Part shown: in pieces, positions 1,750 through 22,694 of the stretch
Layout of the letters: the number at the start of each line of letters is the position of its first letter
Position numbering within the stretch: position 1 is the first letter of the stretch
DNA from: a virus
Reading direction: 5' to 3' (one strand)
IMG/VR virus record: IMGVR_UViG_3300030107_000470
Location: 1 to 25,062 of that record
Length of the DNA stretch: 25,062 bases
Translations under genes and position numbers: made by a program
Notes under the pieces: model-generated
Seen by the model: the letters and a program-made list of their open reading frames with translations, nothing else
Database searches by the model: none
What the model was told of the DNA's origin: nothing

Positions 1750-2748
1750 GTGTCAAATTATAGAGAACTAAAAGGTTATAATGTTAAATCAGTTTCTAGC
1801 GATCCTAGTAATCTTAAATTAGGACAAGTTTGGTATAACTCTACTCTAGGGAGTATAAAAGTAGCACCTAAATTAGATTCATGGGCTGCTGGTGGAAGTT
1901 TAAATACTGCTAGAGGTTATTTATCTGCAGCTTCAGCTGGAACTCAAAATGCAACATTAGGTTTTGGAGGAAATGCTCCTCCAGCTGCTCAAATGAATAA
2001 TTCAGAATCTTATAATGGAAGCACTTGGACAGCAACACCAACTTTAAATGCTGGAAGAAGAATGTTAGGTGGAGCTGGAACTCAGACAGCTGCTTTAGCT
2101 TTTGGTGGTTTTAGAGATTCACCAGCAGGTCCACCATTTACAGGAAAAGGAACTGTAACAGAAGATTTTGATGGATCTAGTTGGACAACTGCTCCAGCTA
2201 CTATGGGTACAGGAGTAAATTTATTTGCAAGTTTTGGAACTAACACAGCGGCAGTTGCTGCAACTGGAACAGAAGGAACACAAACACAACTTTATAATGG
2301 TTCTGCATGGACTACATCTCCAGCAAGTGTAAACACAGGAAGATTTGATTTAGCAGGAGCTGGAACACAAACAGCAGGTGTAATATTCGGAGGATTAACT
2401 CCCCCAAGTGGACCTCCTTATACAGCCTCTTCAGCCACAGAAGAATGGAGTGGTTCATCTTGGACTACTGGTGGTGCGTTAAACACAGCAAGAAGAGGTC
2501 CTGGTGGTGCAGGGACACAAACAGCAGCTTTGGCTGCAGGAGGTGGCCCACCTTATGTAAATGCAACAGAAGTCTATGATGGAACAAGTTGGACAAATAA
2601 AACTAATTTAACTACAACAAGGGGAAGTACAGCAGGAGCTGGAACCCAAGCTGCAGGTCTTATTTTTGGTGGTCATAAACCTGCTGCAGCAAATGAAACA
2701 GAAGAGTTTACATTTGACGCAACACCTAGAACAGTGGATGTATCATGA
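1750..2748 (+). CDS. Kelch-like propeller tail protein, one six-blade unit
   Basis: This 332-residue protein starts at a GTG supported by AGGAGA. An N-terminal head of about 45 residues (YRELKGYNVKSVSS, then GQVWYNS) precedes six repeats of about 45-50 residues. Each has a TARxxxAGAGTQTAALAFGG strand pair and ends in an aromatic-containing Y-[DN]-G-x-x-W-T turn, which is the GG/Y/W/R spacing of Kelch-type propeller blades. The protein ends with TEEFTFDATPRTVDVS. Head, blades and tail recur in the two paralogues downstream, where the blade set is doubled. It contains no cysteine, signal peptide or membrane segment. The stop overlaps the next start by four bases (ATGA), so the two are probably co-translated. 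A virion receptor-binding or glycan-binding role is likely from context but not proven. Confidence 0.75.
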   Translation: MSNYRELKGYNVKSVSSDPSNLKLGQVWYNSTLGSIKVAPKLDSWAAGGSLNTARGYLSAASAGTQNATLGFGGNAPPAAQMNNSESYNGSTWTATPTLNAGRRMLGGAGTQTAALAFGGFRDSPAGPPFTGKGTVTEDFDGSSWTTAPATMGTGVNLFASFGTNTAAVAATGTEGTQTQLYNGSAWTTSPASVNTGRFDLAGAGTQTAGVIFGGLTPPSGPPYTASSATEEWSGSSWTTGGALNTARRGPGGAGTQTAALAAGGGPPYVNATEVYDGTSWTNKTNLTTTRGSTAGAGTQAAGLIFGGHKPAAANETEEFTFDATPRTVDVS

Positions 2749-4601
2749 CGGATTATAAAAATATACATGGTAAAAGAGTTAAATTTGCTACATCTGATTT
2801 AACTGGTACCGAGTCAGAAGGACAAGTATTTTATAGTGACACTGATAGCAAGTACAAAGTATCTGTGGCATCTGCTGCATGGGCATCTACTTCATCTATG
2901 ATTAGAAGTCCAGGAACAGCTCAAGCAGGAGTTTCTGGAACATCTACTGCAGCAATTGCATTTGGAGGTCAAAAAAATAATCCATATCCTGTTATAACTG
3001 ACACTGAAGAATTTAATGGATCAGGATGGTCTTCGGGTGGAGCTACTCCAGCAGCAAGATTTGGTTGGGTTGGTGGAATTGGAACAGCAACAGCAGCTTT
3101 AGGATCTGGTGGATTTACAGCTCCTGGGTCAGTGGCAACAGAGTCTTATGAATATGATGGTTCATCATGGACTGAAGGTGGAGATATTTCAACTGGTAGA
3201 GGTAACGCTGGAGGAGCGGGAACACAAACTGCAGGACTTGCTTTTGGTGGAAGAACTGGAGGTCCAAGTGGTTCTTCTAGATCGACTGCTGTTGAAGAAT
3301 ATGATGGTTCATCATGGACTGAAGGTGGTGCAATGCCAGCAGCAACAGATAGATTTACAGGAGCTGGATTACAAACAGCTGCTATTCAAGCAGGTGGAGA
3401 TTTAACTAATAGTTCTACAGGGATAAGTTCATGTTCAGAGTATGATGGATCAAGTTGGACAGCTCTTCCATCTTTAAATACATCAGGTAGAGCCGTAGGT
3501 AATTCAGGTACTACAACTTCAGCTTTAGCTTTTGGTGGTCAAAACAGAACTACAGCTACAGAAAGTTTTAACGGCACATCTTGGACTACATCTCCAGCTA
3601 CATTAGCCAATGCAAGAAGCACTACTCCTTTTAGTAATAGTAACTCAGCACCAAATAATTCTTCAGCTTTGGCGGTGGGAATCCAACCTTATGCTAGTAA
3701 TTGTGAAGAATATAATCAATCAGTAAATACAGTCACAGCAGCAGCTTGGTCAAGTGGAGGAAATTTAGGAACAGCAAGATACAATGCAGGAGTTTGTGGA
3801 ACAACTCCAGCAGGTTTATGTGCAGGTGGAAATACACCTGGTGGATTCACTCCAAATTCTGAAGAATATAATGGCACTGCATGGACTGAAGGTAGTAACT
3901 TAAATACATCTAGAGGTTCTATTCAATCTTTTGGATTACAAACTGCAGGAGTTTGTTATGGTGGATATACTGGATCACCAGCTGGTGTAAATACTACAGA
4001 AGAATATGATGGATCAAGTTGGACAAGTGTTAATAACATGGGTAATACTAGATCCGATGGTATGTCACATGGTATATTAACTGCAGGTTTAGGTTCAGGA
4101 GGTGCACCATCTAATACAGCTTTGTGTGAAGAATATGATGGAACTAATTGGTCAACAGGAGGTGCATTAAACGTGGGTAGAAAAAGTGGAGCTGGTACAG
4201 GTACACAAACAGCTGCTTTATGTGCTGGAGGTAATCCTCAACCAGGAGCAGCAGGTGAGTCATGTGAAGAGTATGATGGTTCTTCTTGGACAGCTGGAAA
4301 TGATTTAATTATTAATAAAGGTGGTACTACAGGTTTTGGATCACAAACAGATTGTATTGTGTTTGCAGGTGGTAATCCCACTCGTCAAACTTCTACACTA
4401 GGATATGATGGAACTAATTGGTCAACAAGACCAAGTTGTGCAACTGGAAGAGATGCTATAGGTAGTGCAGCTCAAGTATCAAGTTCAGCAGCAGGGTTTT
4501 TCTGTGCTGGAAGAACAACTGATGGTCAAGGAACTCAACATACAGAAGAATTTGTTGGAAGAACACTAACATTAAATACAAAAACCATAACTGATAGTTG
4601 A
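2745..4601 (+). CDS. Kelch-like propeller tail protein, two six-blade units
   Basis: This 618-residue paralogue of the preceding gene begins in its stop codon (ATGA overlap). It has the same head (YKNIHGKRVKFATSD, then EGQVFYSD), then six blades to about residue 322. A linker CEEYNQSVNTVTAAAW resembles a C-terminal tail joined to a new first blade, and six more blades follow from about residue 331. It ends TEEFVGRTLTLNTKTITDS. Blades carry the TQTAALAFGG and EEYDGSSWT signatures. The second half has about nine cysteines, mostly at equivalent blade positions (GLCAGG, VCYGG, LCAGG, FFCAGR, LCEEYDG, SCEEYDG), unlike the first propeller gene. Two 32-base stretches at 3150-3181 and 3297-3328 are identical. 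The likely role is a tail or receptor-binding protein made by duplication of a single-propeller ancestor. Confidence 0.75.
   Translation: MTDYKNIHGKRVKFATSDLTGTESEGQVFYSDTDSKYKVSVASAAWASTSSMIRSPGTAQAGVSGTSTAAIAFGGQKNNPYPVITDTEEFNGSGWSSGGATPAARFGWVGGIGTATAALGSGGFTAPGSVATESYEYDGSSWTEGGDISTGRGNAGGAGTQTAGLAFGGRTGGPSGSSRSTAVEEYDGSSWTEGGAMPAATDRFTGAGLQTAAIQAGGDLTNSSTGISSCSEYDGSSWTALPSLNTSGRAVGNSGTTTSALAFGGQNRTTATESFNGTSWTTSPATLANARSTTPFSNSNSAPNNSSALAVGIQPYASNCEEYNQSVNTVTAAAWSSGGNLGTARYNAGVCGTTPAGLCAGGNTPGGFTPNSEEYNGTAWTEGSNLNTSRGSIQSFGLQTAGVCYGGYTGSPAGVNTTEEYDGSSWTSVNNMGNTRSDGMSHGILTAGLGSGGAPSNTALCEEYDGTNWSTGGALNVGRKSGAGTGTQTAALCAGGNPQPGAAGESCEEYDGSSWTAGNDLIINKGGTTGFGSQTDCIVFAGGNPTRQTSTLGYDGTNWSTRPSCATGRDAIGSAAQVSSSAAGFFCAGRTTDGQGTQHTEEFVGRTLTLNTKTITDS
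3150..3328 (+). repeat. Identical 32-base direct repeats in adjacent blades
   Basis: The same 32 bases, coding for EYDGSSWTEGG, occur at 3150-3181 and 3297-3328, exactly 147 bases (49 codons) apart. Identity at third bases, while flanking blade sequence has diverged, suggests recent blade duplication or gene conversion. Confidence 0.85.
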
Positions 4602-4644: not shown

Positions 4645-4974
4645 ATGGCACTGTTTATATATGGCGTAGCAGCAAACACTGGAAAAGGATTTTTTACTGC
4701 AGAAGATAGAAGAAATTTTTTTCTAAGAGGTTATTCTGGTCACGATGGATCTAACTATGTAGATGTCTGGGTTATTGGAGCTAATGAAAGAGGAGCGTGT
4801 TGGTTAGCTGAAAAAAGCGGGACTGAAAAAACTAAAGCAGAAGCACAAGCTTTAGTTAAAGCATCGGATGATTTAGCTAGAACAGCTTGGGACAATAACA
4901 ATGTTGATGGAGAATCAGCTGACGACAAAAACTCAAGAATTGGAACAAAACCTGATTTTATAACAATCCCCTAA
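4645..4974 (+). CDS. Small protein between propeller genes, unknown function
   Basis: This 109-residue protein has a well-placed AAGGAGGA ribosome site. I do not recognise the family. The N-terminal half is aromatic and beta-like (FFLRGYSGHDGSNYVDVWVIGANERGACWLAE). The middle looks helical (KTKAEAQALVKASDDLARTAWDNN), and the end is acidic then basic (GESADDKNSRIGTKPDFITIP). No signal peptide, membrane span or catalytic motif is evident. It separates two long paralogous propeller genes and is followed after ten bases by the third, so a part in fibre assembly, capping or chaperoning is possible. That is only a guess from position. The strong ribosome site and its own candidate promoter fit an abundant virion component. 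Confidence 0.65.
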   Translation: MALFIYGVAANTGKGFFTAEDRRNFFLRGYSGHDGSNYVDVWVIGANERGACWLAEKSGTEKTKAEAQALVKASDDLARTAWDNNNVDGESADDKNSRIGTKPDFITIP

Positions 4975-4984
4975 AGGAATTTAA

Positions 4985-6856
4985 ATGTCTACGTATGAGT
5001 CACTAAAAGGACTAAAAATTAAATATTTATCTTCTGATACTTCAGGAGATAGAATTCAAGAAGGTGAAATATTTTATAATTCTGTAGATTTTAATCTTAA
5101 AAGTTATTTAGCAGTAGCTGCTTGGCATAGTGGTTTTCCTTTAAACACAGGTAGAACTCATCTTTGTGGCTCAGGAACACAGACTGCTGCTTTTGCAGCA
5201 GGAGGGTTAAAACCAGCTTTAGCAAATGAAACAGAAGAATACAGTGGAACTGGTTGGGCTGCTGGTGGAGATTTAAACACCGCAAGAAGTACTCTTGCAG
5301 CAGCTGGATCACAAACTGCAGGTTTAGCTTTTGGAGGAAATGCTACAACTTTAAGAAATGAATCAGAAGAATATGATGGATCTTCTTGGACTGAAGGAGA
5401 TAATTTAAATACAGCCAGAAGAGCATTAGCAGGAGCAGGCACGCAAACTGCAGGTTTAGCTTTTGGCGGTAGTAACCCTACTACAACTGAAAAAAATGAA
5501 ACAGAAACTTATAATGGTTCAAGTTGGACAGAAGTAGCCAATTTAAATGATGCAAGAGATTTTGTTGCTGGTTTAGGAACTCAAACAGCTGCACTTTGTA
5601 TTTCTGGAGAATCACCAAGTTTAGTCGCTAGTGTTGAATCATGGGATGGTTCAAGCTGGACTGAAGTTGGAGATTTAAATACTGCAAGATTTGGAGCAGC
5701 AGCATCAGGAACAACTTCTGCTGGTTTAGCGTTTGGTGGACAAAGTTCTACTGCTGTTGTAGGTTTAACAGAAAGTTGGGACGGAACTTCTTGGACTGAA
5801 ACAGCAGACATGTCAACAGCTAGAGAAAACACAGCTGGTTCTTTATCAGCTTCAAATCCAGCTACTCTTGTTTTTGGAGGAGGAGATGGTCCACCTTTTT
5901 CAGATGCAACAGAAGAATTTACAATATCGTTATCAGCAACAACTGCTGGAGGTTGGTCTAGTGGTGGTAATCTAAATGTTGCTAGAGGTTCAAGAGGTCC
6001 AAATGCTGGAGCAGGAACTTTAACAGCTGGCTTAGCATTTGGAGGTAATCCAGGTTCGGGTCCTTCACCACAATCGGCTGAAACAGAAGAGTATGATGGA
6101 TCTTCTTGGACTAACGCAAATGATGCTCCTGTTTCAAGAGGAGGAGGTGCTGCTTTTGGAACACAAACAGCAGCTCTTGGGGCAGCTGGTTATGGAACTC
6201 TTCCTGCATATTTTCCGACAGCTACAATATTATATGATGGAACAAATTGGACTTCAGGAGAAAATTTTCCTAAAACTGCAACAGACCTTGGATCTTGTGG
6301 AACTACTACTGCAGGACTTTCTTTTGCAGGCTACACACCATTACAAACTCCTTCTCCACAAAAAACTAATCAAACAGAAGAATATGATGGAACAGATTAT
6401 GCATCAGGTGGTAATATGAATACAGCTAGAAGAGCACCAGTTGCATTTGGAACTCAAACAGCTGCTTTTGGTGGTGGCGGTTTTGATGACGCTGTTAATC
6501 CGCACCCTGCACTTGCTAATGCAGAAGAATATGATGGATCTAGTTGGACTAATGTTACAAGCATGCCAGTTTCAAGACAAAACGCAGGTGGTTATGGTCT
6601 TCAAACAGCAGCTGTAATATTTGGAGGATATAGTGGATCTAATCAAACAACTGCTTTTACATATGATGGAACTAGTTATTCAGCAGCACCATCTATTGCT
6701 ACTGCAAGAAATGCTTTTTTCTGTTCAAAAGCAACTACAACTTCAACTGGTGGGTTTGGAGCTGGCGGAAATCCAGCACCTGTAGGTGCTAACACAGAAC
6801 ATTTTTCAGGAGAAACAACTGCATTAAGAGATGTCAAAACAGTTGACTTTGATTAA
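4985..6856 (+). CDS. Kelch-like propeller tail protein, two six-blade units
   Basis: This 623-residue protein is the third propeller paralogue. AAGGA at 4975-4979 lies just before the ATG. The head reads YESLKGLKIKYLSSDTSGD, then EGEIFYNS. Six blades run to about residue 312, where TEEFTISLSATTAGGW marks the junction between units. Six more follow, and the protein ends TEHFSGETTALRDVKTVDFD. Blade signatures LNTARxxLAGAGTQTAGLAFGG and EEYDGSSWT are closest to consensus in the first unit, with two blades using ESWDG instead of EEYDG. The layout matches the 618-aa paralogue, so both probably descend from a fused two-propeller gene. A role as an outer tail or receptor-binding protein is inferred. 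A 37-base gap follows before the next gene. Confidence 0.75.
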   Translation: MSTYESLKGLKIKYLSSDTSGDRIQEGEIFYNSVDFNLKSYLAVAAWHSGFPLNTGRTHLCGSGTQTAAFAAGGLKPALANETEEYSGTGWAAGGDLNTARSTLAAAGSQTAGLAFGGNATTLRNESEEYDGSSWTEGDNLNTARRALAGAGTQTAGLAFGGSNPTTTEKNETETYNGSSWTEVANLNDARDFVAGLGTQTAALCISGESPSLVASVESWDGSSWTEVGDLNTARFGAAASGTTSAGLAFGGQSSTAVVGLTESWDGTSWTETADMSTARENTAGSLSASNPATLVFGGGDGPPFSDATEEFTISLSATTAGGWSSGGNLNVARGSRGPNAGAGTLTAGLAFGGNPGSGPSPQSAETEEYDGSSWTNANDAPVSRGGGAAFGTQTAALGAAGYGTLPAYFPTATILYDGTNWTSGENFPKTATDLGSCGTTTAGLSFAGYTPLQTPSPQKTNQTEEYDGTDYASGGNMNTARRAPVAFGTQTAAFGGGGFDDAVNPHPALANAEEYDGSSWTNVTSMPVSRQNAGGYGLQTAAVIFGGYSGSNQTTAFTYDGTSYSAAPSIATARNAFFCSKATTTSTGGFGAGGNPAPVGANTEHFSGETTALRDVKTVDFD

Positions 6857-6893: not shown

Positions 6894-7577
6894 ATGTCAG
6901 ATAAAAGAAATATAAAACAATTAATAGAAAAAGAAGCACCTAATTTAAATAATTTATTAGATCCAGAAGATGTTCAACAATTTAAAGGTTTAACAGAAGA
7001 ACTTAAAGATACTTGGACTAAAAAACAAATGTTTAGAACAGAAACTGAAATGCAGTTTTCTGTGTTAAATGATGCAAAGTATCCAACAAAAGCTGCAAAA
7101 TATTGGCAGTGTGTTAGAGAACAAAACGTATTTTTAGAAAATTTAATGAATCTTTCTTTTGATTATAGAAGAACAGAAGTTAAATTAAAAAGACTACAAG
7201 AAAAATTAGGTAAGGAAGAAGACCCATTAAAAAAAGAATTATTACAAATTGATATAGATGAAAAAATATATGCAAAAGCTTCTATGCAATTAGTAGCAAG
7301 AGATAGAATGAGAGAAATAAAACTATGGTCTGGATTTAAAAAGAAATTTGATGATGGATCATTTGATACTAAAGATGTTAACACACATCAACTACATTCG
7401 TATCACCTAACTATGAAAAATAAAGCAGAGACATTAACATCAGGATCTAGTCAACCTGAAGTGTTTAATGTGTTAGGTCAATTACAATCTATTGAAAGAA
7501 TAAAGAAAGAATTGGGTCAACTAGAATATGAAAAGAAAGACAAACTTACACACGAACTTGGAGCAAAACCAGAGTAA
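6894..7577 (+). CDS. Charged helical/coiled-coil protein, unknown function
   Basis: This 227-residue protein has AAAGGA about seven bases before its ATG. It is almost wholly helical and highly charged: an N-terminal KRNIKQLIEKEAPNLNNLLDPEDVQQFKGLTEELKD, then a likely coiled coil around residues 85-150 (RRTEVKLKRLQEKLGKEEDPLKKELLQIDIDEKIYAKAS). A QLQSIERIKKELGQLEYEKKDK helix ends the protein. No enzyme motif or membrane segment is visible. Its 3' end overlaps the sulfotransferase gene by 50 bases. It heads the overlapping gene chain that runs to 10776, so it may be an assembly factor, scaffold or regulator of that cassette. I do not recognise a named family. Confidence 0.65.
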   Translation: MSDKRNIKQLIEKEAPNLNNLLDPEDVQQFKGLTEELKDTWTKKQMFRTETEMQFSVLNDAKYPTKAAKYWQCVREQNVFLENLMNLSFDYRRTEVKLKRLQEKLGKEEDPLKKELLQIDIDEKIYAKASMQLVARDRMREIKLWSGFKKKFDDGSFDTKDVNTHQLHSYHLTMKNKAETLTSGSSQPEVFNVLGQLQSIERIKKELGQLEYEKKDKLTHELGAKPE

Positions 7578-8346
7578 AAAATTATTTTTTTTAGTTGCAA
7601 TGCCAAGGTCGGGTAATACTTTGTTTGCATCTATTATAAATCAAAATCCAGAGATAGCAGCAACAGCTAACTCTATTACGTTAGAAATAATGAAAGATTT
7701 ATTTTTGCTTAAAGAAACAGATGTGTTCCAAAACTTTCCAGATCACAAATCTTTAGATAATGTAATAGATTCTGTTTATGATAATTATTACAAAGATTGG
7801 CCGCAACGTATACTTATTGATCGTGGCCCAGTAATGACTAAAGGTAATTTTGAATTAATGAAAAAACATTTTAAACGTCCTTTTAAATGTATTATATTAT
7901 TACGAAACTTAATGGATGTATTAGCCAGTTATATGCAATGGTATACAAAAAATCCAAATGCATTTCCCAATAGATTTGGTTTAAAAAATGATGAAGAAAA
8001 ACTATTTATGTTAATGCATAAAGAAGGAAGTATTGCTAAAGAATTAGAAGCAATTAAAAATGCTTATAATTATCCAGATATATGCCACTTTGTAAAATAT
8101 GATGATTTAGTTACAAATCCTGAAGAAGAATTTAAAAAGATATATAATTTTTTAGAAGAACCTTATTTTAATCATAGATTTAATAATTTAGAACAAATAA
8201 AAATAAATAGTTTATCTTATGATGATAAAATAGTTGGTAGCAATATGCATAAATTATTTGATGGACCTGTTAGAAAAGTATATAATCCTTATATAAAAAA
8301 AATTCCAGAAAGCATTAGGCTAAATTATGAACACATTAAATTTTAA
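7528..8346 (+). CDS. PAPS-dependent sulfotransferase-like protein
   Basis: This 272-residue protein has the two cofactor motifs of the P-loop sulfotransferase fold. A 5'-phosphosulfate loop (KKLFFLVAMPRSGNTLF, residues 17-33) follows the first beta strand, and a 3'-phosphate motif (CIILLRNLMDVLASYMQWY, about 121-139) holds the typical Arg and Ser. Length is normal for the family. By family knowledge it would move sulfate from PAPS to a hydroxyl on a glycan, small molecule or tyrosine; the acceptor cannot be read from the sequence. The ATG at 7528 overlaps the previous gene by 50 bases. A TTG at 7558 would still keep the first strand, whereas the ATG at 7600 would delete it and is rejected. 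The 3' end overlaps the first oxygenase gene by 20 bases. Placement among virion genes and oxygenases suggests modification of a surface or virion component. Confidence 0.78.
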   Translation: MKRKTNLHTNLEQNQSKKLFFLVAMPRSGNTLFASIINQNPEIAATANSITLEIMKDLFLLKETDVFQNFPDHKSLDNVIDSVYDNYYKDWPQRILIDRGPVMTKGNFELMKKHFKRPFKCIILLRNLMDVLASYMQWYTKNPNAFPNRFGLKNDEEKLFMLMHKEGSIAKELEAIKNAYNYPDICHFVKYDDLVTNPEEEFKKIYNFLEEPYFNHRFNNLEQIKINSLSYDDKIVGSNMHKLFDGPVRKVYNPYIKKIPESIRLNYEHIKF

Positions 8347-8986
8347 CGTTGTATTTTTAGGACAGTCTGTTTTAAAATATGAAGTTCCGTTAGATATATA
8401 TAATACTATTAATCATATTTATGAAACAAAACGACACGAGTTACCTAAAGCTAATCCACAATTAGTAGGTAAAATTCAAAACGAACATTCATTATTTTTT
8501 AATGGACCACCAAATAATAAAATGTATTCACATGATTTTTTACCACATAATGTTAAGCAATGGTTTCATGAAACTATGAAACATTATTTAGATTGGAATA
8601 AAATTTTAAACTATAAAATGCATTTAAATTCTATATGGGTAAATGAAATGAAAGCTAATGAATATAATCCAGTACATATTCATCAAGGATCAATATATAC
8701 TGGTCTATCTTCTGTTATGGTTTTAAAATTACCAAAAAATACAGGCATTGAATACTCAGCACCTGGTAAACCTATGAATGGATCTTTGCAAATATTAGGA
8801 AATTCTTCAGGACAATTTTGTAACTCAGACTATGGCCCAATATTAAAAGAAAGATCTTTTTTTGTTTTTCCATATGATATGAGGCATTGTGTTTATCCGT
8901 TTAATAGCACGGATGATATAAGAAGAACTTTAGCATGTAATATGGATGTAGAATATGATCCAGTTTTAAATAGGAGCGCATTTTGA
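8327..8986 (+). CDS. Putative 2OG-Fe(II) oxygenase, HxH type (first of four)
   Basis: This 219-residue protein looks like a divergent member of the phage/cyanobacterial 2OG-FeII_Oxy_5-like group, a double-stranded beta-helix fold. The candidate metal ligands are H117 and H119 in NPVHIHQGS and the distal H187 in FFVFPYDMRHCVYPF. R199 or R200 (DDIRRTLACNMD) would bind 2-oxoglutarate. Using HxH in place of HxD is normal in this group, as in the third oxygenase here. The ATG overlaps the sulfotransferase stop region by 20 bases, and the stop forms a TTGA overlap with the next gene. The substrate is unknown; hydroxylation of a protein, glycan or nucleic acid is possible. The N-terminal 100 residues are unlike those of the other three oxygenases. 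Confidence 0.7.
   Translation: MNTLNFNVVFLGQSVLKYEVPLDIYNTINHIYETKRHELPKANPQLVGKIQNEHSLFFNGPPNNKMYSHDFLPHNVKQWFHETMKHYLDWNKILNYKMHLNSIWVNEMKANEYNPVHIHQGSIYTGLSSVMVLKLPKNTGIEYSAPGKPMNGSLQILGNSSGQFCNSDYGPILKERSFFVFPYDMRHCVYPFNSTDDIRRTLACNMDVEYDPVLNRSAF
8971..8976 (+). promoter_or_regulatory. Ribosome binding site for a TTG start
   Basis: TAGGAG lies six bases before TTG at 8983, which shares its last two bases and the next A with the TGA stop of the upstream gene. No ATG is available before conserved sequence begins, so TTG is the likely start. Confidence 0.65.
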
Positions 8987-9564
8987 TTATATTAGAACCT
9001 AAATGGAAAAGTTGGATAATTGAAACAACTACACCTTTGTTTACTCCAGAACAATGTCAACAGATTATTGAGTGTGGCAGACGTCAACCACCGCAACAAG
9101 CAAAAGTTGGTACAGGCAAACCAAGTGGTGGCACAGATACAAAAAAAAGAATTACAACTATTAGTTGGATACCGTTTAATGAAATGAAACCAATGTATGA
9201 TCAAGTAAATAGTTTTATAAAAAAAACAAATTTAAATCATTTTGGATTTGAAGATGTTGGAGTAACAGAACAAGCTCAGTTTACAGAATATCCTGAAGGT
9301 GGGTTTTATGATTGGCATATGGATTGTGATATAAATATGCAACACGAACCTCCTGTTAGAAAAATATCAATGACAGTTTTACTTTCACCTGAAAACCAAT
9401 TTGAAGGAGGTCATTTAGAATTAATGGCTCCAGGTAAATATGCAAAATTAAAACAAGGGCATGCTATTTGTTTTGCATCATTTATAAATCATAGAGTACA
9501 ACCAGTAATTAGGGGAGTTAGGCAGTCTCTTGTTATGTGGTTTGGAGGTCAACCTTTTAGATGA
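8983..9564 (+). CDS. 2OG-Fe(II) oxygenase, prolyl-hydroxylase/PKHD-like, HxD type
   Basis: This 193-residue protein is the clearest enzyme of the four. It has FTEYPEGGFYDWHMDCD with ligands H112 and D114, then RKISMTVLLSPENQFEGGHLEL. The KLKQGHAICFASFINHRVQPVIRGVRQSLVMWFGG stretch holds ligand H170 and 2-oxoglutarate-binding R180. This order is typical of prolyl 4-hydroxylase/PKHD-type oxygenases such as PiuC relatives. It has no membrane anchor and should be cytoplasmic. Translation starts at TTG inside the TTGA overlap and the stop forms an ATGA overlap with the following gene, so it is coupled on both sides. Likely protein-side-chain hydroxylation is inference; the acceptor is unknown. Confidence 0.85.
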   Translation: MIILEPKWKSWIIETTTPLFTPEQCQQIIECGRRQPPQQAKVGTGKPSGGTDTKKRITTISWIPFNEMKPMYDQVNSFIKKTNLNHFGFEDVGVTEQAQFTEYPEGGFYDWHMDCDINMQHEPPVRKISMTVLLSPENQFEGGHLELMAPGKYAKLKQGHAICFASFINHRVQPVIRGVRQSLVMWFGGQPFR

Positions 9565-10142
9565 TAATAGAAAAATTTTTTCCAACAATTGTATATGGTA
9601 AAGATGTGCAATTAGATAATAATCAATTAGAACAAAATATTATTAATTGGGCTAATAAAGATACAGGTGTAGTAAAAACAAATTATAAAGGTTGGCATTC
9701 AACAACTGATATGCATACTAAACCTGAATATAAACCTTTATTTGATGAGTTATTTAAAATGCAGGAAGAAATATATAAATACGAACATTTAGATAGGAGA
9801 CCAAGATTAGGTAATATGTGGGCTAATATAAATCCACCAGGCGCTTTAAACAAAGCTCATGTTCATCCTAATGGATTATTCTCTGGTGTTTACTATATTA
9901 AAACACCAAAAAATTGTGGTAGATTAAATATAATGGATCCAAGACCTGGTATACAATGTAATATGCCTACAAGAAAATCAGGTAATCCTGGTAAAGATTT
10001 ATGGAGAGATATAAATTTAGAACCTGTAACAGGTAGAATAATAATGTTTCCTTCGTGGTTATGGCATTCAGTTGAAGAAAATAAATCAAATGATATAAGA
10101 ATATCAGTAAGTTTTAATTTTATACAAGATGGCTTTCAATAA
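9561..10142 (+). CDS. 2OG-Fe(II) oxygenase, HxH type (2OG-FeII_Oxy_5-like)
   Basis: This 193-residue protein contains the landmark series of the family I know as 2OG-FeII_Oxy_5: WANINPPGALNKAHVHPNGLFSGVYYIKTP with ligands H100 and H102, then GRIIMFPSWLWHSVEENKSNDIRISVSFNF with H169 and R180. Members are common in cyanophages and other marine phages. It starts in the preceding stop (ATGA), with GGAGGT about 11 bases upstream, and overlaps the fourth oxygenase by 14 bases. The catalytic set appears complete, so the enzyme should be active if folded. The substrate is unknown. Confidence 0.85.
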   Translation: MIIEKFFPTIVYGKDVQLDNNQLEQNIINWANKDTGVVKTNYKGWHSTTDMHTKPEYKPLFDELFKMQEEIYKYEHLDRRPRLGNMWANINPPGALNKAHVHPNGLFSGVYYIKTPKNCGRLNIMDPRPGIQCNMPTRKSGNPGKDLWRDINLEPVTGRIIMFPSWLWHSVEENKSNDIRISVSFNFIQDGFQ

Positions 10143-10776
10143 ATATCAAGTAATAAAAAATGCAATTAGTTATGAATTAGCTAATTTTATATTTAATTAT
10201 TTTTTACTTAAACGTGACGCAGTTGCTTTTATGTATCAAAATAATTTAATATATGACACAGGGATGTTAGGCACTTGGAAAGATGAACAAGTTCCAAACA
10301 CTTATTCTCATTATGGAGATCCTGTTATGGAGACTTTGTTAATGAAAGTATTACCGACAATGCAACAAGAAACAGGGTTGCAATTAATACCCACTTATTC
10401 ATACGCAAGAATATACAAACAAGGTGATATATTAAAAAGACATAAAGATAGACCTAGTTGTGAAATATCTACAACAATACATTTAGGAGGCCATCCTTGG
10501 CCTATCTATATAGATGGCACAGGAGCAAACAATGTTATAGATGAAAAAAAAGGTTTAGTTAAACCAGGCGCTCCAGCAGGCACTAAAGTCTTACTTGAAG
10601 TAGGAGATATGTTGGTATATAGTGGGTGCGAATTAGAGCATTGGAGAGAACCTCTAGAAGGTAATACTTGCGCTCAAGTATTTCTTCATTATAACCATGT
10701 AAATGGTCCTTTTGCTGAAAAAAATAGGTTCGACAAAAGGCCAATGTTAGGTGTTCCGAATTTTGGGAATAAATAA
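10129..10776 (+). CDS. 2OG-Fe(II) oxygenase, HxD type (fourth of four)
   Basis: This 215-residue protein has a core YARIYKQGDILKRHKDRPSCEISTTIHLGG with likely iron ligands H105 and D107. It continues with a WPIYIDG strand and GDMLVYSGCELEHWREPLEGNTCAQVFLHYN, where H171 is the distal ligand. R173 directly after it may help bind 2-oxoglutarate; the usual Arg ten residues downstream is not evident, since that area reads TCAQVFL. The fold type is that of prolyl-4-hydroxylase-like enzymes often seen in marine phages and picocyanobacteria. The start overlaps the previous gene by 14 bases and lacks a strong ribosome site, so translation may depend on coupling. It is the last gene of the modification cassette; the gp10-like gene follows after 14 bases. 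Confidence 0.8.
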   Translation: MAFNKYQVIKNAISYELANFIFNYFLLKRDAVAFMYQNNLIYDTGMLGTWKDEQVPNTYSHYGDPVMETLLMKVLPTMQQETGLQLIPTYSYARIYKQGDILKRHKDRPSCEISTTIHLGGHPWPIYIDGTGANNVIDEKKGLVKPGAPAGTKVLLEVGDMLVYSGCELEHWREPLEGNTCAQVFLHYNHVNGPFAEKNRFDKRPMLGVPNFGNK

Positions 10777-10790
10777 TATAATGAGGTTAT

Positions 10791-12938
10791 ATGTTACAAA
10801 AAGTAAAATTTGCACCAGGGTTTAATAAACAAGTTACATCAACGGGCGGCGAAAGCCAATGGGTTAACGGAGATAACGTTCGTTTTAGATATGGTACACC
10901 TGAAAAAATAGGCGGTTGGTCACAATTAGGATCTGTAGATATTACAGGTAGAAACACAGCTATTCATCACTTTATTAATACATCGGGTATTAAGTATGCA
11001 GCATTAGGTACAAACAGAATTTTATATGCATACTCCGGTGGTATATTTTATGACATACATCCAATCAAAACAACTACAACATTAACAAGTGCTTTTTCTA
11101 CAACTAATGGGTCAGCAGTTGTAACTTTAACATTTTCGTCTGCACACAATATAAATCAATACGATATTATATTATTAGACAATTTTACATCTATAACTAA
11201 TTCTAATTTTAGTTCATCAAACTTTGATGATAATAAATTTATGGTAACTAGTATTCCAACAGATACTACACTTACTATTAACGTTGGTTCAAATGAATCA
11301 GGATCAGGTGCATCAACATCAGGTGGTATTAGAGTTAAACACTACTATCCTGTTGGACCAGCAGTTGAAGTTGCATCTACAGGTTTTGGATTAGGACCTT
11401 GGAGTGGTTTTAAGTCCGGTCAGTTTACATCAACATTATCTTCAAATATAAATACATCAGTAACATCTTTGACTATGGCAAGTTCATCTTCTTTCCCATC
11501 TACTGGAACAGTTATTATTGGGTCAGAATTAATTACTTACACAGGAAACAGCAGTGGAACGTTATCGGGATTAACAAGAGGAGCTAGTGGTACAACGGCA
11601 GCTAGTCATAGTTCTGGAGCAACAGTTACAGATGCATCGGACTTTTTTGCATGGAATGCTGCAGCATCAGGAGACGTTATAACAGCACCAGGTTTATGGT
11701 CGTTAGATAATTTTGGTAATAAACTTATTGCAACAATTAGTAGTGGAGAAACATTTGAATGGAATTCAAATCCAACAGATGCAACGGATACAAGAGCAAC
11801 TATTGTGAGTAACGCACCAACTGCGTCTGCATTTACATTGGTATCTACACCAGATAGACACTTAATATTTTTTGGAACAGAAACAACTATTGGTACAAAA
11901 TCTACACAAGACCCAATGTTTGTAAGATTCTCTTCTCAAGAAGATATTAATACTTATACACCTTCAGCAACTAACACTGCAGGTACACAAAGACTTGCGG
12001 ATGGATCTAAAATTATGGGAGCGATTAGAGGTAGAGATGCAATTTATGTTTGGACAGATACAGCTTTATTTACTATGAGATTTGTTGGTCCACCATTTAC
12101 ATTCTCATTTCAACAAGTTGGTACAAACTGTGGATTGATTGGAAAGAACGCAGCTGTTGAAGTTGATGGTACAGCATATTGGATGTCAGAAAATGGTTTT
12201 TTTAGATATGCTGGTAGATTAGAATCATTACCATGTTTAGTTGAAGATCATGTTTTTGATGATATTAATACTACACCTAAACAACATATTAATGCAGGTT
12301 TAAATAACTTGTTTGGTGAAGTAATGTGGTTCTATCCAAACTCAGGATCGGGAACAGTTAATAGAGTTGTAACTTATAATTATTTAGACTCAACACCAGA
12401 TAGACCTGTTTGGACAACAGGCACATTAGCAAGAAGCGCTTGGCAAGATTCTGCTGTATTTGGTAAGCCACATGCAACAGAATATGATTCATCAGGCACA
12501 ACTGCTACAACAGATACAAATTATATTTTTGGTAACAGTGATGGTACCTCAACTTATTATGAACATGAAACAGGTTTAAATCAAGTTAAAGAAGGAGCTA
12601 CTTCAGCTATTGCAGCAAGTATTGAATCTGGAGATTTTGATATTGGTGCACAAGGGCTTGCTGGAGATGGAGAGTTTATGATGAAAATAAGAAGAGTTAT
12701 ACCAGATTTTTTAACACAAACAGGTAGTGCAAGAGTTACATTAAATTTAAGAGATTTTCCAAATGATACAGCAGCTAGTTCTACATTAGGTCCATTTACA
12801 ATAACAAGTGGTACACAAAAAATAGATACACGTGCAAGAGCTAGATCCATATCATTAAAAATAGATAACACAAGCACTAGTCAGTTTTGGAAGTTAGGAA
12901 CATTTAGAATTGATTATCAACCAGACGGGAGAAGATAA
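10791..12938 (+). CDS. Tail stabilisation protein, P22 gp10-like
   Basis: This 715-residue protein opens with LQKVKFAPGFNKQVTSTGGESQWVNGDNVRFRYGTPEKIGGW. This matches the remembered N-terminal pattern of P22 gp10-type packaged-DNA stabilisation proteins (PGxNKxxT, then W-x-D/N-x-VRFR-x-G-x-PEKIGGW). The body is beta-rich, with blade-like segments such as DRHLIFFGTE, GRDAIYVWTDTALFTMRFVG and ENGFFRYAGR. A Ser/Thr-rich insertion at about residues 210-285 contains GSELITYTGNSSGTLSGLTRGASGTTAA. The end is FWKLGTFRIDYQPDGRR. In P22 the protein closes the portal and joins it to the tail needle. GAGGT lies just before the ATG, and the stop overlaps the next start by one base (TAATG). Finding it here supports a podovirus. 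Confidence 0.72.
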   Translation: MLQKVKFAPGFNKQVTSTGGESQWVNGDNVRFRYGTPEKIGGWSQLGSVDITGRNTAIHHFINTSGIKYAALGTNRILYAYSGGIFYDIHPIKTTTTLTSAFSTTNGSAVVTLTFSSAHNINQYDIILLDNFTSITNSNFSSSNFDDNKFMVTSIPTDTTLTINVGSNESGSGASTSGGIRVKHYYPVGPAVEVASTGFGLGPWSGFKSGQFTSTLSSNINTSVTSLTMASSSSFPSTGTVIIGSELITYTGNSSGTLSGLTRGASGTTAASHSSGATVTDASDFFAWNAAASGDVITAPGLWSLDNFGNKLIATISSGETFEWNSNPTDATDTRATIVSNAPTASAFTLVSTPDRHLIFFGTETTIGTKSTQDPMFVRFSSQEDINTYTPSATNTAGTQRLADGSKIMGAIRGRDAIYVWTDTALFTMRFVGPPFTFSFQQVGTNCGLIGKNAAVEVDGTAYWMSENGFFRYAGRLESLPCLVEDHVFDDINTTPKQHINAGLNNLFGEVMWFYPNSGSGTVNRVVTYNYLDSTPDRPVWTTGTLARSAWQDSAVFGKPHATEYDSSGTTATTDTNYIFGNSDGTSTYYEHETGLNQVKEGATSAIAASIESGDFDIGAQGLAGDGEFMMKIRRVIPDFLTQTGSARVTLNLRDFPNDTAASSTLGPFTITSGTQKIDTRARARSISLKIDNTSTSQFWKLGTFRIDYQPDGRR

Positions 12939-19300: not shown

Positions 19301-20256
19301 TATTACGTGGTATGGCAAAAGCTGCAGGTGAATTAGCTGATCCGTTTATATCAGAAGCAATCTACACAGAAGCTGCTTTAGATATTATTACAAGAGGTGG
19401 TCGAACAAGAGAAGGTAGACAGCTATATACTGAACGAACACCTGATGGAGAAAAAATAAAAATTATAACAAATCATTTAGCTAGAGCTATGTTACCTTTT
19501 TCGTATCAACAACTTAATAGATTATATCAAGCAGCAGCTGACAAACCATCTGAGCGTGGAGAATTTTTTGAAGTGCCGGATGAATTAGGTGGATTCATAG
19601 GATATAGAGCTGTAAAAGTAGACCCTGTAAGATCTATAGGATTTAAAATAGCAGATTATAAAAGAGGTATTAGAGAGTCAAGATCGTTGTTTACAGGTGG
19701 TCCAGAATCAGTTTTAAAAGGTGGACCTAAAACTCCTAAAGATGTTATTGAAAGATTTTTTATTGCAAACAAAGCAAGATTTAATGTTCAAAAAGAAATG
19801 TTAAAAAATATAGAAGCAGCAAATATTTTGGGAACTGACATGAGAAAATTTAGTCAAGAGTTTGCTGAAAGAGGTCTTGGTAAAACTTATGGAAGACTAA
19901 GAAGAAAAGATTTTAATCCATACTTTCCATCACAAGATATATTTAGAGAGTTTGAACAAATATCTAAAAGAATAGGTCAACCTAATCCTATGAAAGCAGC
20001 GTTAGGAACAATTAGATCTATGTCTAGAAGATTAAATCGTTTAAGATTAGATGATGAGTTTGATTTAAATCTTGATGATTACCTACCAGATCCAGATATG
20101 TTAGATCAATCTGCAGCATTACCTACACCACCTGTAAGCCCACAAGTAATACAACCAATACAAACTACAATGCAAACAGGTTTAACACCTACAGAAACTG
20201 CGTTGCTTTCTGAAGAAGAAAAAGCTATAAGGTTAAGACAGAGAGGAATGGCGTAA
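16366..20256 (+). CDS. Giant internal virion (ejection) protein
   Basis: At 1296 residues this is the largest gene in the window. It is mainly helical and basic, with no recognisable lytic or polymerase motif. Early hydrophobic, Gly/Ala-rich stretches (VTAAMAGIASGVIKVPEGVISLGAELIDLG at about 25-54; FVAGVAGGAVGEAFVADVEDIG at about 142-163) and a middle hydrophobic block near 634-675 (NLILFPKALSQVAKTILAPVTHFRNLF) suit a protein that passes through the tail and inserts into membrane. The last 60 residues are proline-rich, with PTPPVSPQVIQPIQTTMQTG. Length and position after smaller internal proteins parallel T7 gp16 and P22 gp16, but I see no lysozyme-type catalytic domain. It is coupled to the next gene by TAATG. 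The ejected-protein role is likely but not proven. Confidence 0.65.
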   Translation: MAKDIDAFGYFDLTPQEQSSETSAVTAAMAGIASGVIKVPEGVISLGAELIDLGFDTDTAAKVEQAFDKINVFEDVADDRAIGKITETLIQIGVPGSIGFKLVSGAVKAKKAGNYMNAAGMNLQKAAKKANDFNKTLGRKKFVAGVAGGAVGEAFVADVEDIGSFGDVFEAGPTQLEETTDEGGREDAFKKLMNRTKFGSESLLITPFVYGTGKAIKAAATRGRRIEFSNSTLDKYFNKVFSALRARGAKPQEIFESKMAEKGATMADTNRAMELVKNIDRQVDSMFPMFKSIFDKSTTKNRTEIYKTLNDVLFSDNIGQDISKANVTKVTKFLKDKGAKGNAVNEIFKSLNGARETFSELINASSNAPKDVKTLQSLMGNRVREYLGNTYRIFEDKSILPYMRYAPTEEAIKDTKQFFKNYAAKNGKKLTDFQAETMVNTIIKTAQKQKGPPGLPFKYVDDTAADEGPELDKFFKNILTDQIKPERILAETKGKDKATIQALFGKMEDPRFSIYNSMTKLSAIARKNELFEKIAKQDDAIKRTVTKNTPAGARGFFFDDALEAADALPNQDIVELDKYLLPFFRDEFTINPLQGKFTTKAIAEGLGDSSKALKFLFEPRPGATGVEKGLTWGYRNLILFPKALSQVAKTILAPVTHFRNLFSATGFSAANGIFFENPAIVARAFGDAFAPLQTGAPIKRALGKVTGVGFDEAAANARYRKLLDLGVVNSQVQLGDVKNLLRDVRFGENLNVAKPLESMMKKLTAGTARKAKGFMKGAEDLYTAEDDLFKIANFAVERYRLKNAYTAAGKKFTDDLLDNEAADIVRNTVPNYAYVSDTVRALRRLPLGTFMSFPSEILRTTTNIAQRSLKEIKDPALRNIGIKRLIGLGTVLTIAPNAIQSGFQIANNVTNEQLQALKQYLPDWSKNSTILPIRSKDGELKYIDFSHGNAYDVATRPIQTLINEVQRGITDEEVLMKGVLRGMAKAAGELADPFISEAIYTEAALDIITRGGRTREGRQLYTERTPDGEKIKIITNHLARAMLPFSYQQLNRLYQAAADKPSERGEFFEVPDELGGFIGYRAVKVDPVRSIGFKIADYKRGIRESRSLFTGGPESVLKGGPKTPKDVIERFFIANKARFNVQKEMLKNIEAANILGTDMRKFSQEFAERGLGKTYGRLRRKDFNPYFPSQDIFREFEQISKRIGQPNPMKAALGTIRSMSRRLNRLRLDDEFDLNLDDYLPDPDMLDQSAALPTPPVSPQVIQPIQTTMQTGLTPTETALLSEEEKAIRLRQRGMA

Positions 20257-22694
20257 TGGCAATAGATTTTGAATCATTCATAGCAGACCCAAAAATAACA
20301 GATCCTGGAATAGATGTATCCGGTATTAAAACTACTACACCTACCAGACAAGAATTATTATTTGATTTACCAGAATTTTCTGGAATTCAAGTTGATCCAA
20401 CTAGAGCATCTTACGTAGAAGATATATATAGAGCTTATTCTGGACAGATACCTAGTATTCCAGAACCAGTTGTTACAACACCACCAGTAACAAGTGGAGT
20501 AGGAACAGGCGACGGGGGACAAGCGACTACACCTATCACTACACCTACAACAACGGTTGGAACAAACACAGCAGAACAACAAAGATTAATAGATGCGGGT
20601 ATCGGAGTGCAAGCAGCACCAGGACAACCTGTTGTAGCGCCAGGTGAGGTACCAGTTACGCAAGCAGAAATAGATGCTTTTAATCAAATACCTGTAAATA
20701 CAGATTTTAGAAATCAACAATTAGTAAATCAAGGAATAGGAGTTAGAGTTGGAGACACAGGCCCTGTTGTAGCGCCAGGTGAGGAACCAGTTACACAGGC
20801 GAAAATGGACGAATTTAATGAAGAACAACAAAGCACTCTTCAAAATATATTAGGTCAAGCAGGTCAAACTGTTCAAGGAGCTATGAATCAATTAGGTAAG
20901 ATATCAGGATCTGTAGTAGATTTTGCAAATCAAACAGTAGATATATTTGGTAAAAAAATAAACGTAGGTAAAACTTTAGCAGCAGCTGCCATTAACAAAA
21001 TAGCAGGTGGCCCTGTAAGTTTAGTATTTGAACTATTACCTAAAGACTCAATAGAAAATAAAACAACAAGAGGTGTGGTTGATACATTAAAAGCAGAAAA
21101 AGATTATGGATTTAATATGCAATCTGGAAATTTAAATCAAGATCCTTTTGGTAGAAATCCAGTGTCTGCTTTTGGTAATTATGAACAAACATTATTAGAT
21201 GACATAGCTGGAGTAAATCAATCAGGATTTGAAACAGCAAAAATGAGAGAAAAGAAAAAAGAATTTGCACAAGATTATTTTAAAAAGAAAGCTGAATTTG
21301 CTGGTGGTGTTCAACAAACTTCAGATCAAATATCAGACATTCTTGGCCCTGGAGAATTTAAACCTGAAGGTGAGAATTTAGTTTCGCTAGAGAATCAACT
21401 TGCAGAACAAGCAAAAGAAAGAGCAGCTCAAAATGAATTAGCAAAATTAACAGGTGATGTTGATTTTGATGTTCCTACAAAATCTCAACCAGTAACAGGC
21501 ACCAAGGGACCACAAGTTACAGCACCAGTGACAGGCGTCACGCGACCAGGGACGGTTTTAGGTAAACCTGGCATTGAAAGATTTGATGATGCAGAAACAG
21601 ACATTGGTGGTAAAATACCAGCAGGTGCATCAACAACAGGAACTCCTGTAGATGCTTTAAATCCTGTTAACAGACAACAACATTTTGATAATACACAGAA
21701 ATTAAAAGATGCTGTTGCAGAAGGTAAAATTACAAATGAAGAATATAACAAGCTTAGTGCTTTTGATGCAAGAAAAACAATGGGATTAGGGACAGTAACA
21801 GGGACAGCAAGTGCTGCAATTTATCAAGGTGTTCAAACAGGAATAGGAGCATTAAGAGAAACTTTAGGTATAAATCCAGCTTTTGCAGGTGATCAATCTC
21901 TTGCAGAGGCAGCAGGCGATACTGCTAGAAATATTCAAGGTGTATCAGGAAACATAACACCAGAAGAACAAGTTAAATATCAAGAAATTATTAGTGGAGA
22001 AGATATATACAGAGATCCTATTTTAGGTATGGTTGAACCATCTGCACCAATGACTTTAGCTGACGATAAAATAAATACAATGACAGATGATGTAGATTTA
22101 GATCTTTTTGATACTACACCATCAGCACCATCTATTCCAACGACAGGCATAGACATACCAGATCCAAGTCCAACACCTTCATTTACACCAAGAGGTGGAG
22201 GAGCAGATAGAGATCCTGCACCATCACCATCACCATCACCAAATGAAGCAGCAGGTCGAGCAGCAGAAAATGCTCAAAGAGCAGCAATACAAGAAGCTGC
22301 AAGAGCTGGTATGACTGTAAACCAAGCAAAAGCATCTGTTGGAATGCCTGCAAATTTAGGCGACACAGGCGGCGGTGACAAAGGCGGCGGAGGCGGCAAA
22401 ATCGTCTGCACTATGATGAACGAATCTTATGGTTTTGGATCTTTTAGAAATAAAATATGGATGAAGTTTCATAAAAATCTTTCACCAGAATATCAAAGAG
22501 GATACCATAAACTATTTTTACCATTAGTTAAAATTGCTAAAACAAATAAAATAGTTAAAAAAATATTAGAACATATTGCAGTGCATAGCACTATAGACAT
22601 GAGACAATCCATGAGAGGTAAAACTCATTTATTAGGTAGAGCGTATAGAAAAATATTATTACCACTTTGTTACTGGGTAGGTAAAAATGCCTAA
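20256..22694 (+). CDS. Long Pro/Gly-rich virion protein with conserved C-terminal module
   Basis: This 812-residue protein starts in a TAATG overlap with AGAGGA eight bases upstream. Residues 60-105 are Pro/Thr-rich and disordered. A duplicated 34-residue unit occupies residues 111-144 and 156-189 (core PVVAPGExPVTQA). Residues 215-260 are Ala/Gly-rich with a hydrophobic segment (TLAAAAINKIAGGPVSLVFELL). Helical regions then alternate with Pro-rich linkers (PSPTPSFTP; APSPSPSPNEAA). A Gly-rich hinge (GGGDKGGGGG) leads into a compact basic end of about 98 residues from 715: KIVCTMMNESYGFGSFRNKIW, GYHKLFLPLV, then RAYRKILLPLCYWVGK. I recall that last module at the C-terminus of many unrelated phage proteins, function unknown. 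The stop overlaps the holin-like gene by eight bases. Confidence 0.65.
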   Translation: MAIDFESFIADPKITDPGIDVSGIKTTTPTRQELLFDLPEFSGIQVDPTRASYVEDIYRAYSGQIPSIPEPVVTTPPVTSGVGTGDGGQATTPITTPTTTVGTNTAEQQRLIDAGIGVQAAPGQPVVAPGEVPVTQAEIDAFNQIPVNTDFRNQQLVNQGIGVRVGDTGPVVAPGEEPVTQAKMDEFNEEQQSTLQNILGQAGQTVQGAMNQLGKISGSVVDFANQTVDIFGKKINVGKTLAAAAINKIAGGPVSLVFELLPKDSIENKTTRGVVDTLKAEKDYGFNMQSGNLNQDPFGRNPVSAFGNYEQTLLDDIAGVNQSGFETAKMREKKKEFAQDYFKKKAEFAGGVQQTSDQISDILGPGEFKPEGENLVSLENQLAEQAKERAAQNELAKLTGDVDFDVPTKSQPVTGTKGPQVTAPVTGVTRPGTVLGKPGIERFDDAETDIGGKIPAGASTTGTPVDALNPVNRQQHFDNTQKLKDAVAEGKITNEEYNKLSAFDARKTMGLGTVTGTASAAIYQGVQTGIGALRETLGINPAFAGDQSLAEAAGDTARNIQGVSGNITPEEQVKYQEIISGEDIYRDPILGMVEPSAPMTLADDKINTMTDDVDLDLFDTTPSAPSIPTTGIDIPDPSPTPSFTPRGGGADRDPAPSPSPSPNEAAGRAAENAQRAAIQEAARAGMTVNQAKASVGMPANLGDTGGGDKGGGGGKIVCTMMNESYGFGSFRNKIWMKFHKNLSPEYQRGYHKLFLPLVKIAKTNKIVKKILEHIAVHSTIDMRQSMRGKTHLLGRAYRKILLPLCYWVGKNA
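20586..20822 (+). repeat. Duplicated 34-residue unit
   Basis: Two copies at 20586-20687 and 20721-20822 lie 135 bases apart. They share GIGV, PVVAPGExPVTQA and a terminal FN. At DNA level 19 bases (20631-20649 and 20766-20784) are identical. It may be a structural repeat or a small binding module. Confidence 0.8.
22221..22240 (+). repeat. Hexanucleotide microsatellite coding Pro-Ser
   Basis: Three CCATCA units plus CC encode a PSPSPS stretch in the proline-rich linker of the 812-residue protein. Such a tract could vary in length by slippage. Confidence 0.7.

Follow-up and report, generated by a model that had tools for sequence, protein, structure and literature searches.

Association of a conserved oxygenase-sulfotransferase gene block with fibre type in pelagiphages: a candidate tail-fibre modification cassette

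The stretch of DNA analysed here (hereafter the window) comprises positions 1 to 25,062 of the IMG/VR virus record IMGVR_UViG_3300030107_000470; its 25,062 nucleotides are most of a 29.7-kb viral record whose relatives are HTVC023P-type pelagiphages. Between Kelch-repeat fibre genes and a gp10-like tail gene, the window carries a block of six overlapping genes, all on the + strand: p227, a sulfotransferase gene (ST) and four 2-oxoglutarate (2OG)-Fe(II) oxygenase genes (OxA to OxD). The core unit is p227-OxA-OxB-OxC-OxD, ST being optional, and the set of enzymes present in related phages follows the type of fibre encoded nearby. We consider it probable that this block is a tail-fibre modification cassette, the fibre being its presumed substrate.

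An earlier note on this DNA had described five overlapping open reading frames (ORFs) at 7528-10776, with overlaps of 20, 4, 4 and 14 bases between successive pairs, and their place, order and overlaps were exactly as claimed. They encode ST (7528-8346, 272 aa), OxA (8327-8986, 219 aa), OxB (8983-9564, 193 aa, TTG start), OxC (9561-10142, 193 aa) and OxD (10129-10776, 215 aa). All 80 closest relatives of ST, found on viral contigs, lie in loci whose gene order matches that of the window over the whole length each contig covers. The OxA-OxB-OxC-OxD order was intact in 214 loci and truncated yet collinear in 39, with 4 exceptions. This arrangement is thus not due to chance. Overlap lengths are also conserved, the 20-base ST/OxA overlap being found in 99 of 109 loci. 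In 192 of the 193 loci with enough sequence, p227 (6894-7577, PHROG 1409), which overlaps ST by 50 bases in the window, is found just upstream of OxA, the sole exception being a distant paralogue; the real unit is therefore six genes. Co-occurrence and gene order in relatives had been put forward as a check, and gave different answers for the two kinds of enzyme: OxA to OxD do not vary independently, whereas ST does, being present in 171 loci and absent from 68, in which OxA-D persist. On the OxA tree, the ST state changes at least 20 times, compared with about 58 times when shuffled. OxB is duplicated in 37 loci.

Upstream of the block are three Kelch-repeat genes, K1 (1750-2748, 332 aa), K2 (2745-4601, an ORF of 618 aa) and K3 (4985-6856, 623 aa; PHROG 27227, 2e-115). 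The AlphaFold model of K1 (predicted local distance difference test, pLDDT, 90.7) is a Kelch beta-propeller: its top Foldseek match is the Kelch domain of human NS1-BP (E 2.6e-15), and the top 50 matches are all Kelch-type proteins. K2 and K3 match a K profile common with K1 (1e-180 and 1e-182 respectively). From their position and repeat character, we infer that K1-K3 are tail fibres. A small conserved protein encoded amid these genes, s109 (4645-4974), is kept in K-class loci and has no Pfam match. A tblastn search for the Kelch genes gave no match in GenBank phages, probably because repeats are filtered.

The relationship between fibres and enzymes was analysed in relatives picked via the gp10-like gene alone (10791-12938; PHROG 3287, 1e-106), which lies outside the cassette and served as backbone reference, without selecting for the cassette. 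Upstream sequence of 4 kb or more was available for 25 loci. Oxygenases accompanied repeat fibres in every case (10/10) and other fibres in none (0/15; Fisher 3e-7, relatedness ignored), although gp10 itself was 81-93% identical. In an independent sample, picked via an HTVC023P gene, oxygenases were found in 21 of 24 loci with Gly-rich fibres and in neither of the two others; pooling both samples gives 31/34 repeat-fibre loci against 0/17 other loci, again in counts that ignore relatedness.

Each fibre type is associated with its own set of enzymes. Kelch fibres with p227 go with OxA-D, with or without ST; Gly-rich fibres go with OxB-OxC-OxD, without OxA or p227; another Kelch-like fibre type goes with ST, OxC and OxB; and non-repeat fibres go with no oxygenases. 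Among cultured phages, HTVC023P and HTVC033P show the Gly-rich/OxB-C-D pairing, as does the assembled genome 023Pt_psg01; a cultured phage combining K fibres with ST was not found. Since the enzyme set follows fibre type, modification of the fibre is favoured over a role in host metabolism. A virion protein was one of several targets initially proposed for these enzymes, and is the one that these data favour. The suggestion of a dedicated pathway held in part: the cassette is co-inherited, but a single five-step pathway is not supported, as ST is optional and other fibre classes use subsets of the enzymes. In oxygenase-free relatives (loci L095, L106, L111, L116, L124 and L132), about 5 to 10 proteins of about 200 aa are arrayed upstream of the gp10-like gene.

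All four oxygenases belong, as had been proposed, to the 2OG-Fe(II) class. OxA and OxC are members of the 2OG-FeII_Oxy_5 family (PF13759; 5e-8 and 3e-28 respectively). The OxA match, found in 12/12 homologues, is above the Pfam cut-off and below that of TIGR02466; OxC exceeds both cut-offs, and its profile relatives in the PDB are 3bvc and 2rg4. OxB is a 2OG-FeII_Oxy_3 protein (PF13640, 2e-13) whose PDB profile matches are the PKHD-type protein 3dkq (2e-16), PiuC (2e-14) and the prolyl 4-hydroxylase (P4H) 5c5t (3e-12). The announced split into two HxH and two HxD enzymes was invariant within each alignment. The iron triad HxD...H consists of H112, D114 and H170 in OxB and of H105, D107 and H171 in OxD, and the distal His is invariant in all four alignments. 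In OxA, H117, H119 and H187 are invariant; HxH is found in every aligned member of the OxA and OxC families, in place of the canonical HxD/E with its carboxylate iron ligand, which renders their catalytic activity less certain than that of OxB and OxD. The four genes, described as four different oxygenases, are indeed distinct, but OxA and OxC are distantly related (profile E 3e-6), so that the four represent three lineages.

OxD was assigned by its predicted fold rather than by profile comparison with OxB. Neither Pfam nor NCBIfam has a match for it, and its only assignment is PHROG 2954, labelled 'ferrochelatase'. Its AlphaFold model (pLDDT 89) has the double-stranded beta-helix fold, which for OxB is given by the profile match to solved PKHD/P4H proteins; the best Foldseek match is the Pseudomonas putida P4H (1e-8), followed by a Dictyostelium PHD and PHD2. 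Identity to prolyl 4-hydroxylases is just 12-16%, and any likeness in substrate is putative. Since OxD has a prolyl-hydroxylase fold and the ferrochelatase Pfam model matched 0/16 members of its family, the 'ferrochelatase' label is wrong. HTVC023P gp67 and HTVC008M gp068 belong to the same PHROG, and the PHROG labels 'DNA endonuclease (V)' (274 and 2297) likewise sit on 2OG oxygenases in these phages. In conclusion, OxA-OxD are 2OG-Fe(II) oxygenases, OxB being PKHD/P4H-like and OxD having a prolyl-hydroxylase fold.

ST is a sulfotransferase of the Sulfotransfer_1/_3 type (PF00685/PF13469, 2e-14). The residues expected of an enzyme dependent on 3'-phosphoadenosine 5'-phosphosulfate (PAPS) are all present: the PRxGxT loop, which binds the 5'-phosphosulfate, and R126 and S134, the Arg/Ser pair for the 3'-phosphate, are unchanged in homologues down to 25% identity. 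The closest relatives of solved structure are TPST1 and CurM, TPST1/2 being the top matches of the ST profile (2e-9). TPST has in common with ST the PAPS-binding loop, which in TPST is followed by a catalytic Glu (GEETR). The ST alignment differs from TPST1/2 at this point, with Ala or Asn at the aligned position, and the state of the candidate tyrosine described below does not track ST.

Two candidate target residues were considered. The fibre repeats contain EEYDG, which resembles a tyrosine-sulfation site, and the aromatic position is Y in 70% of sites of ST+ phages compared with 22% in ST- phages. This excess proved to be a clade effect, reflecting Y-type and W-type fibres: 27 pairs of ST+ and ST- phages, matched as nearest neighbours on the OxA tree, differed in Y fraction by 0.000 (p 0.73). 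Moreover, the aromatic residue belongs to the normal Kelch motif. Given the zero paired difference and the missing TPST Glu, sulfation of this tyrosine is not proposed. The Kelch fibres of K-class loci can be sorted into Y-type and W-type according to which aromatic residue precedes [DN]GxxW, a state that changes 5 times on the OxA tree, independently of ST. Fibres of ST+ and ST- phages did not differ in amino-acid composition.

Proline is at present the best lead for a hydroxylation target in the fibres, because of the likeness of OxB and OxD to prolyl hydroxylases and because a GNTPPVSPPQGN motif recurs in the Gly-rich fibres associated with OxB. Gly-rich fibres scored as adjoining OxB-containing sets had 6.2% Pro and 76% of them contained TPP, compared with 1.9% Pro and 2% TPP for those beside a lone OxC, a contrast that amounts in effect to one comparison of lineages. 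By the distance rule used, some HTVC023P and psg01 fibres, which lie farther from the triad, were scored 'none'. In L163-type loci (HTVC023P gp70-gp71), a single OxC directly follows a proline-poor Gly-rich protein, and this arrangement occurs in most contigs of the HTVC023P lineage.

Outside the pelagiphages of this type, ST homologues of the Synechococcus phages S-SKS1 and S-SRM01 and of single-cell viral contigs adjoin beta-repeat or glycine-rich proteins, and most have oxygenases close by. The S-SKS1 and S-SRM01 loci resemble the cassette in this combination, but identity is merely 28-30% and there is no fixed OxA-D block. Unrelated phages repeatedly have ST next to fibre-type genes that are Kelch-like, RCC1-annotated or Gly-rich. 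Back-to-back oxygenases that include an OxD homologue are also found near baseplate or fibre genes in the cultured Pelagibacter phage HTVC008M (gp068-072, five oxygenases), in Mosig and in Syn9; these runs differ from the cassette by their myovirus backbone, another mix of families and the absence of ST. In HTVC008M (47853-66437, locus L172), the five successive oxygenases lie beside baseplate genes, with a tryptophan halogenase and another oxygenase nearby. In each of three phage groups, a PHROG 1409 protein occurs together with ST and Kelch-like fibres (6894-7577 in the window, 1763-2602 in L144 and 820-1653 in L166), and PHROG 1409 adjoins ST in L144-type phages and in cyanophage S-SKS1.

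These observations suggest the following scheme. OxB, OxC and OxD, together with OxA where fibres are of the Kelch type, would add hydroxyl groups to side chains in the repeat adhesins whose genes immediately precede the block; the most plausible moment for this is prior to virion assembly. Where present, ST would move sulfate from PAPS to a hydroxyl of the same adhesin module, the acceptor being possibly a hydroxylated residue, a Ser/Thr or a Tyr. p227 may be a fibre-specific chaperone or scaffold, and could also be a substrate. Such modification would change fibre stability or receptor binding, and might thereby act on host binding. The fibre is proposed as the target because the order p227-(ST)-OxA-OxB-OxC-OxD is fixed, because ST beside repeat fibre-type genes recurs in unrelated phages, because the closest matches of OxB and OxD are protein prolyl hydroxylases, and because Gly-rich fibres adjacent to OxB have GNTPPVSPPQGN while those beside a lone OxC do not.

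Several observations weigh against a fibre target. In an HMO-2011/HTVC033P-type backbone, the p227-(ST)-OxA-D block adjoins replication genes (contigs L047, L242, L273, L283, L382 and L445), and a Kelch gene was not found on these cassette records, which are fragments of at most 23 kb. The block is intact beside replication genes and is therefore portable, its adjacency to fibre genes not being universal. In HTVC027P there are oxygenases but no evident repeat fibre, and oxygenases are missing from three Gly-rich loci. The Fisher tests of fibre type against oxygenases disregard relatedness, the proline contrast has the limit noted above, and neither fibre composition nor the candidate tyrosine responds to the ST state.

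Other targets were weighed against the same data. The enzymes might oxidise and sulfate sugars or lipids of the host envelope, for example to block superinfection. Sulfotransferases and oxygenases frequently act on glycans, glycosyltransferase and nucleotide-sugar genes follow ST in S-SRM01, and oxygenases adjoin glycosyltransferases in S-SCSM2R. We nevertheless regard this as unlikely: neither the cassette nor any homologous locus that was inspected contains a glycosyltransferase, the likeness of OxB and OxD is to protein hydroxylases, and the enzyme set tracks fibre type while the neighbouring tail gene stays 81-93% identical. The substrate might also be p227 or another protein of the block, adjacency to fibres being secondary; p227 stays with the enzymes in either backbone, including where no Kelch gene lies next to the block, and proteins of the same PHROG lie beside ST in other phages. 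The Gly-rich class, which has OxB-C-D without p227, makes this decidedly improbable.

A role as auxiliary metabolic genes (AMGs) acting on the host 2OG pool, nitrogen signalling, heme or iron would agree with the published proposals that phage 2OG oxygenases serve 2OG/NtcA nitrogen signalling or DNA repair (Sullivan et al., 2010; PMC3037559) and with the reported partnership of oxygenases and 'ferrochelatases' (Wittmers et al., 2022; PMC9599517). Since OxD has a prolyl-hydroxylase fold and is not a ferrochelatase, the link to heme is removed, and enzymes acting on metabolism would not be expected to vary with the type of fibre, which leaves this explanation very improbable. The phage might carry a cluster that tailors a secondary metabolite, as biosynthetic loci group tailoring enzymes similarly, a cyanophage halogenase/2OG cluster has been interpreted as tailoring small molecules (PMC7824862), and CurM is among the nearest relatives of ST with a solved structure; with the fibre-type association and no scaffold-making enzyme in the block, we give this extremely little weight. 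That the genes are unlinked accessories, gathered at a variable hot spot of fibre genes and sharing no function, is suggested by the frequent gain and loss of ST and by the 37 OxB duplications, and is hardly credible when OxA-D order is kept in 214 loci, p227 is constant and the block is intact in a second backbone.

The long oxygenase run, which, together with ST, had suggested a dedicated pathway in the earlier note, is not unusual in itself: comparable runs of four or five oxygenases exist in HTVC008M, HTVC023P, HTVC033P, Mosig and Syn9 (Wittmers et al., 2022). That study, whose text mentions neither sulfotransferase nor tail fiber, reported that eight oxygenase families of HTVC023P-type phages are colocated with 'ferrochelatases', and interpreted these as partner metabolic genes. 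These partner-AMG clusters are from the same kind of phage and have the OxD family beside an oxygenase, as in the window; OxB-OxC-OxD homologues are colocated near the gp10-like gene in HTVC023P (gp65-67) and 023Pt_psg01. The published clusters differ in having no OxA/p227/Kelch class and no link to fibre type, and in the reading of OxD as a ferrochelatase. The function of phage sulfotransferases was stated to be unclear in a 2023 paper on OM43 phages (PMC10580990), and one cyanophage has been reported with 24 2OG oxygenases. In the open-access literature, no proposal of fibre modification by such cassettes was found. What is new here is the ST/OxA/Kelch variant and the link to fibres, multi-oxygenase pelagiphage runs having been published in 2022.

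Elsewhere in the window, an 812-aa protein (20256-22694) is about 77% conserved in its C-terminal part in several relatives and about 38-61% in the remainder; judging from this pattern, the C-terminal part may be a separate domain.

2OG oxygenases are numerous in phages of the most abundant ocean bacteria, and since 2010 at the latest it has been unclear what they are for. They are usually read as acting on host metabolism; dependence on fibre type suggests instead that they may finish the adhesins, and the OxD result corrects the 'ferrochelatase' label behind heme and iron interpretations. More tentatively, marine phages may possess exchangeable, fibre-specific modification cassettes, made of several hydroxylases and an optional sulfotransferase, which would add non-genetic chemistry, possibly sulfated hydroxy-residues, to propeller or polyglycine adhesins and so might tune host recognition independently of fibre sequence.

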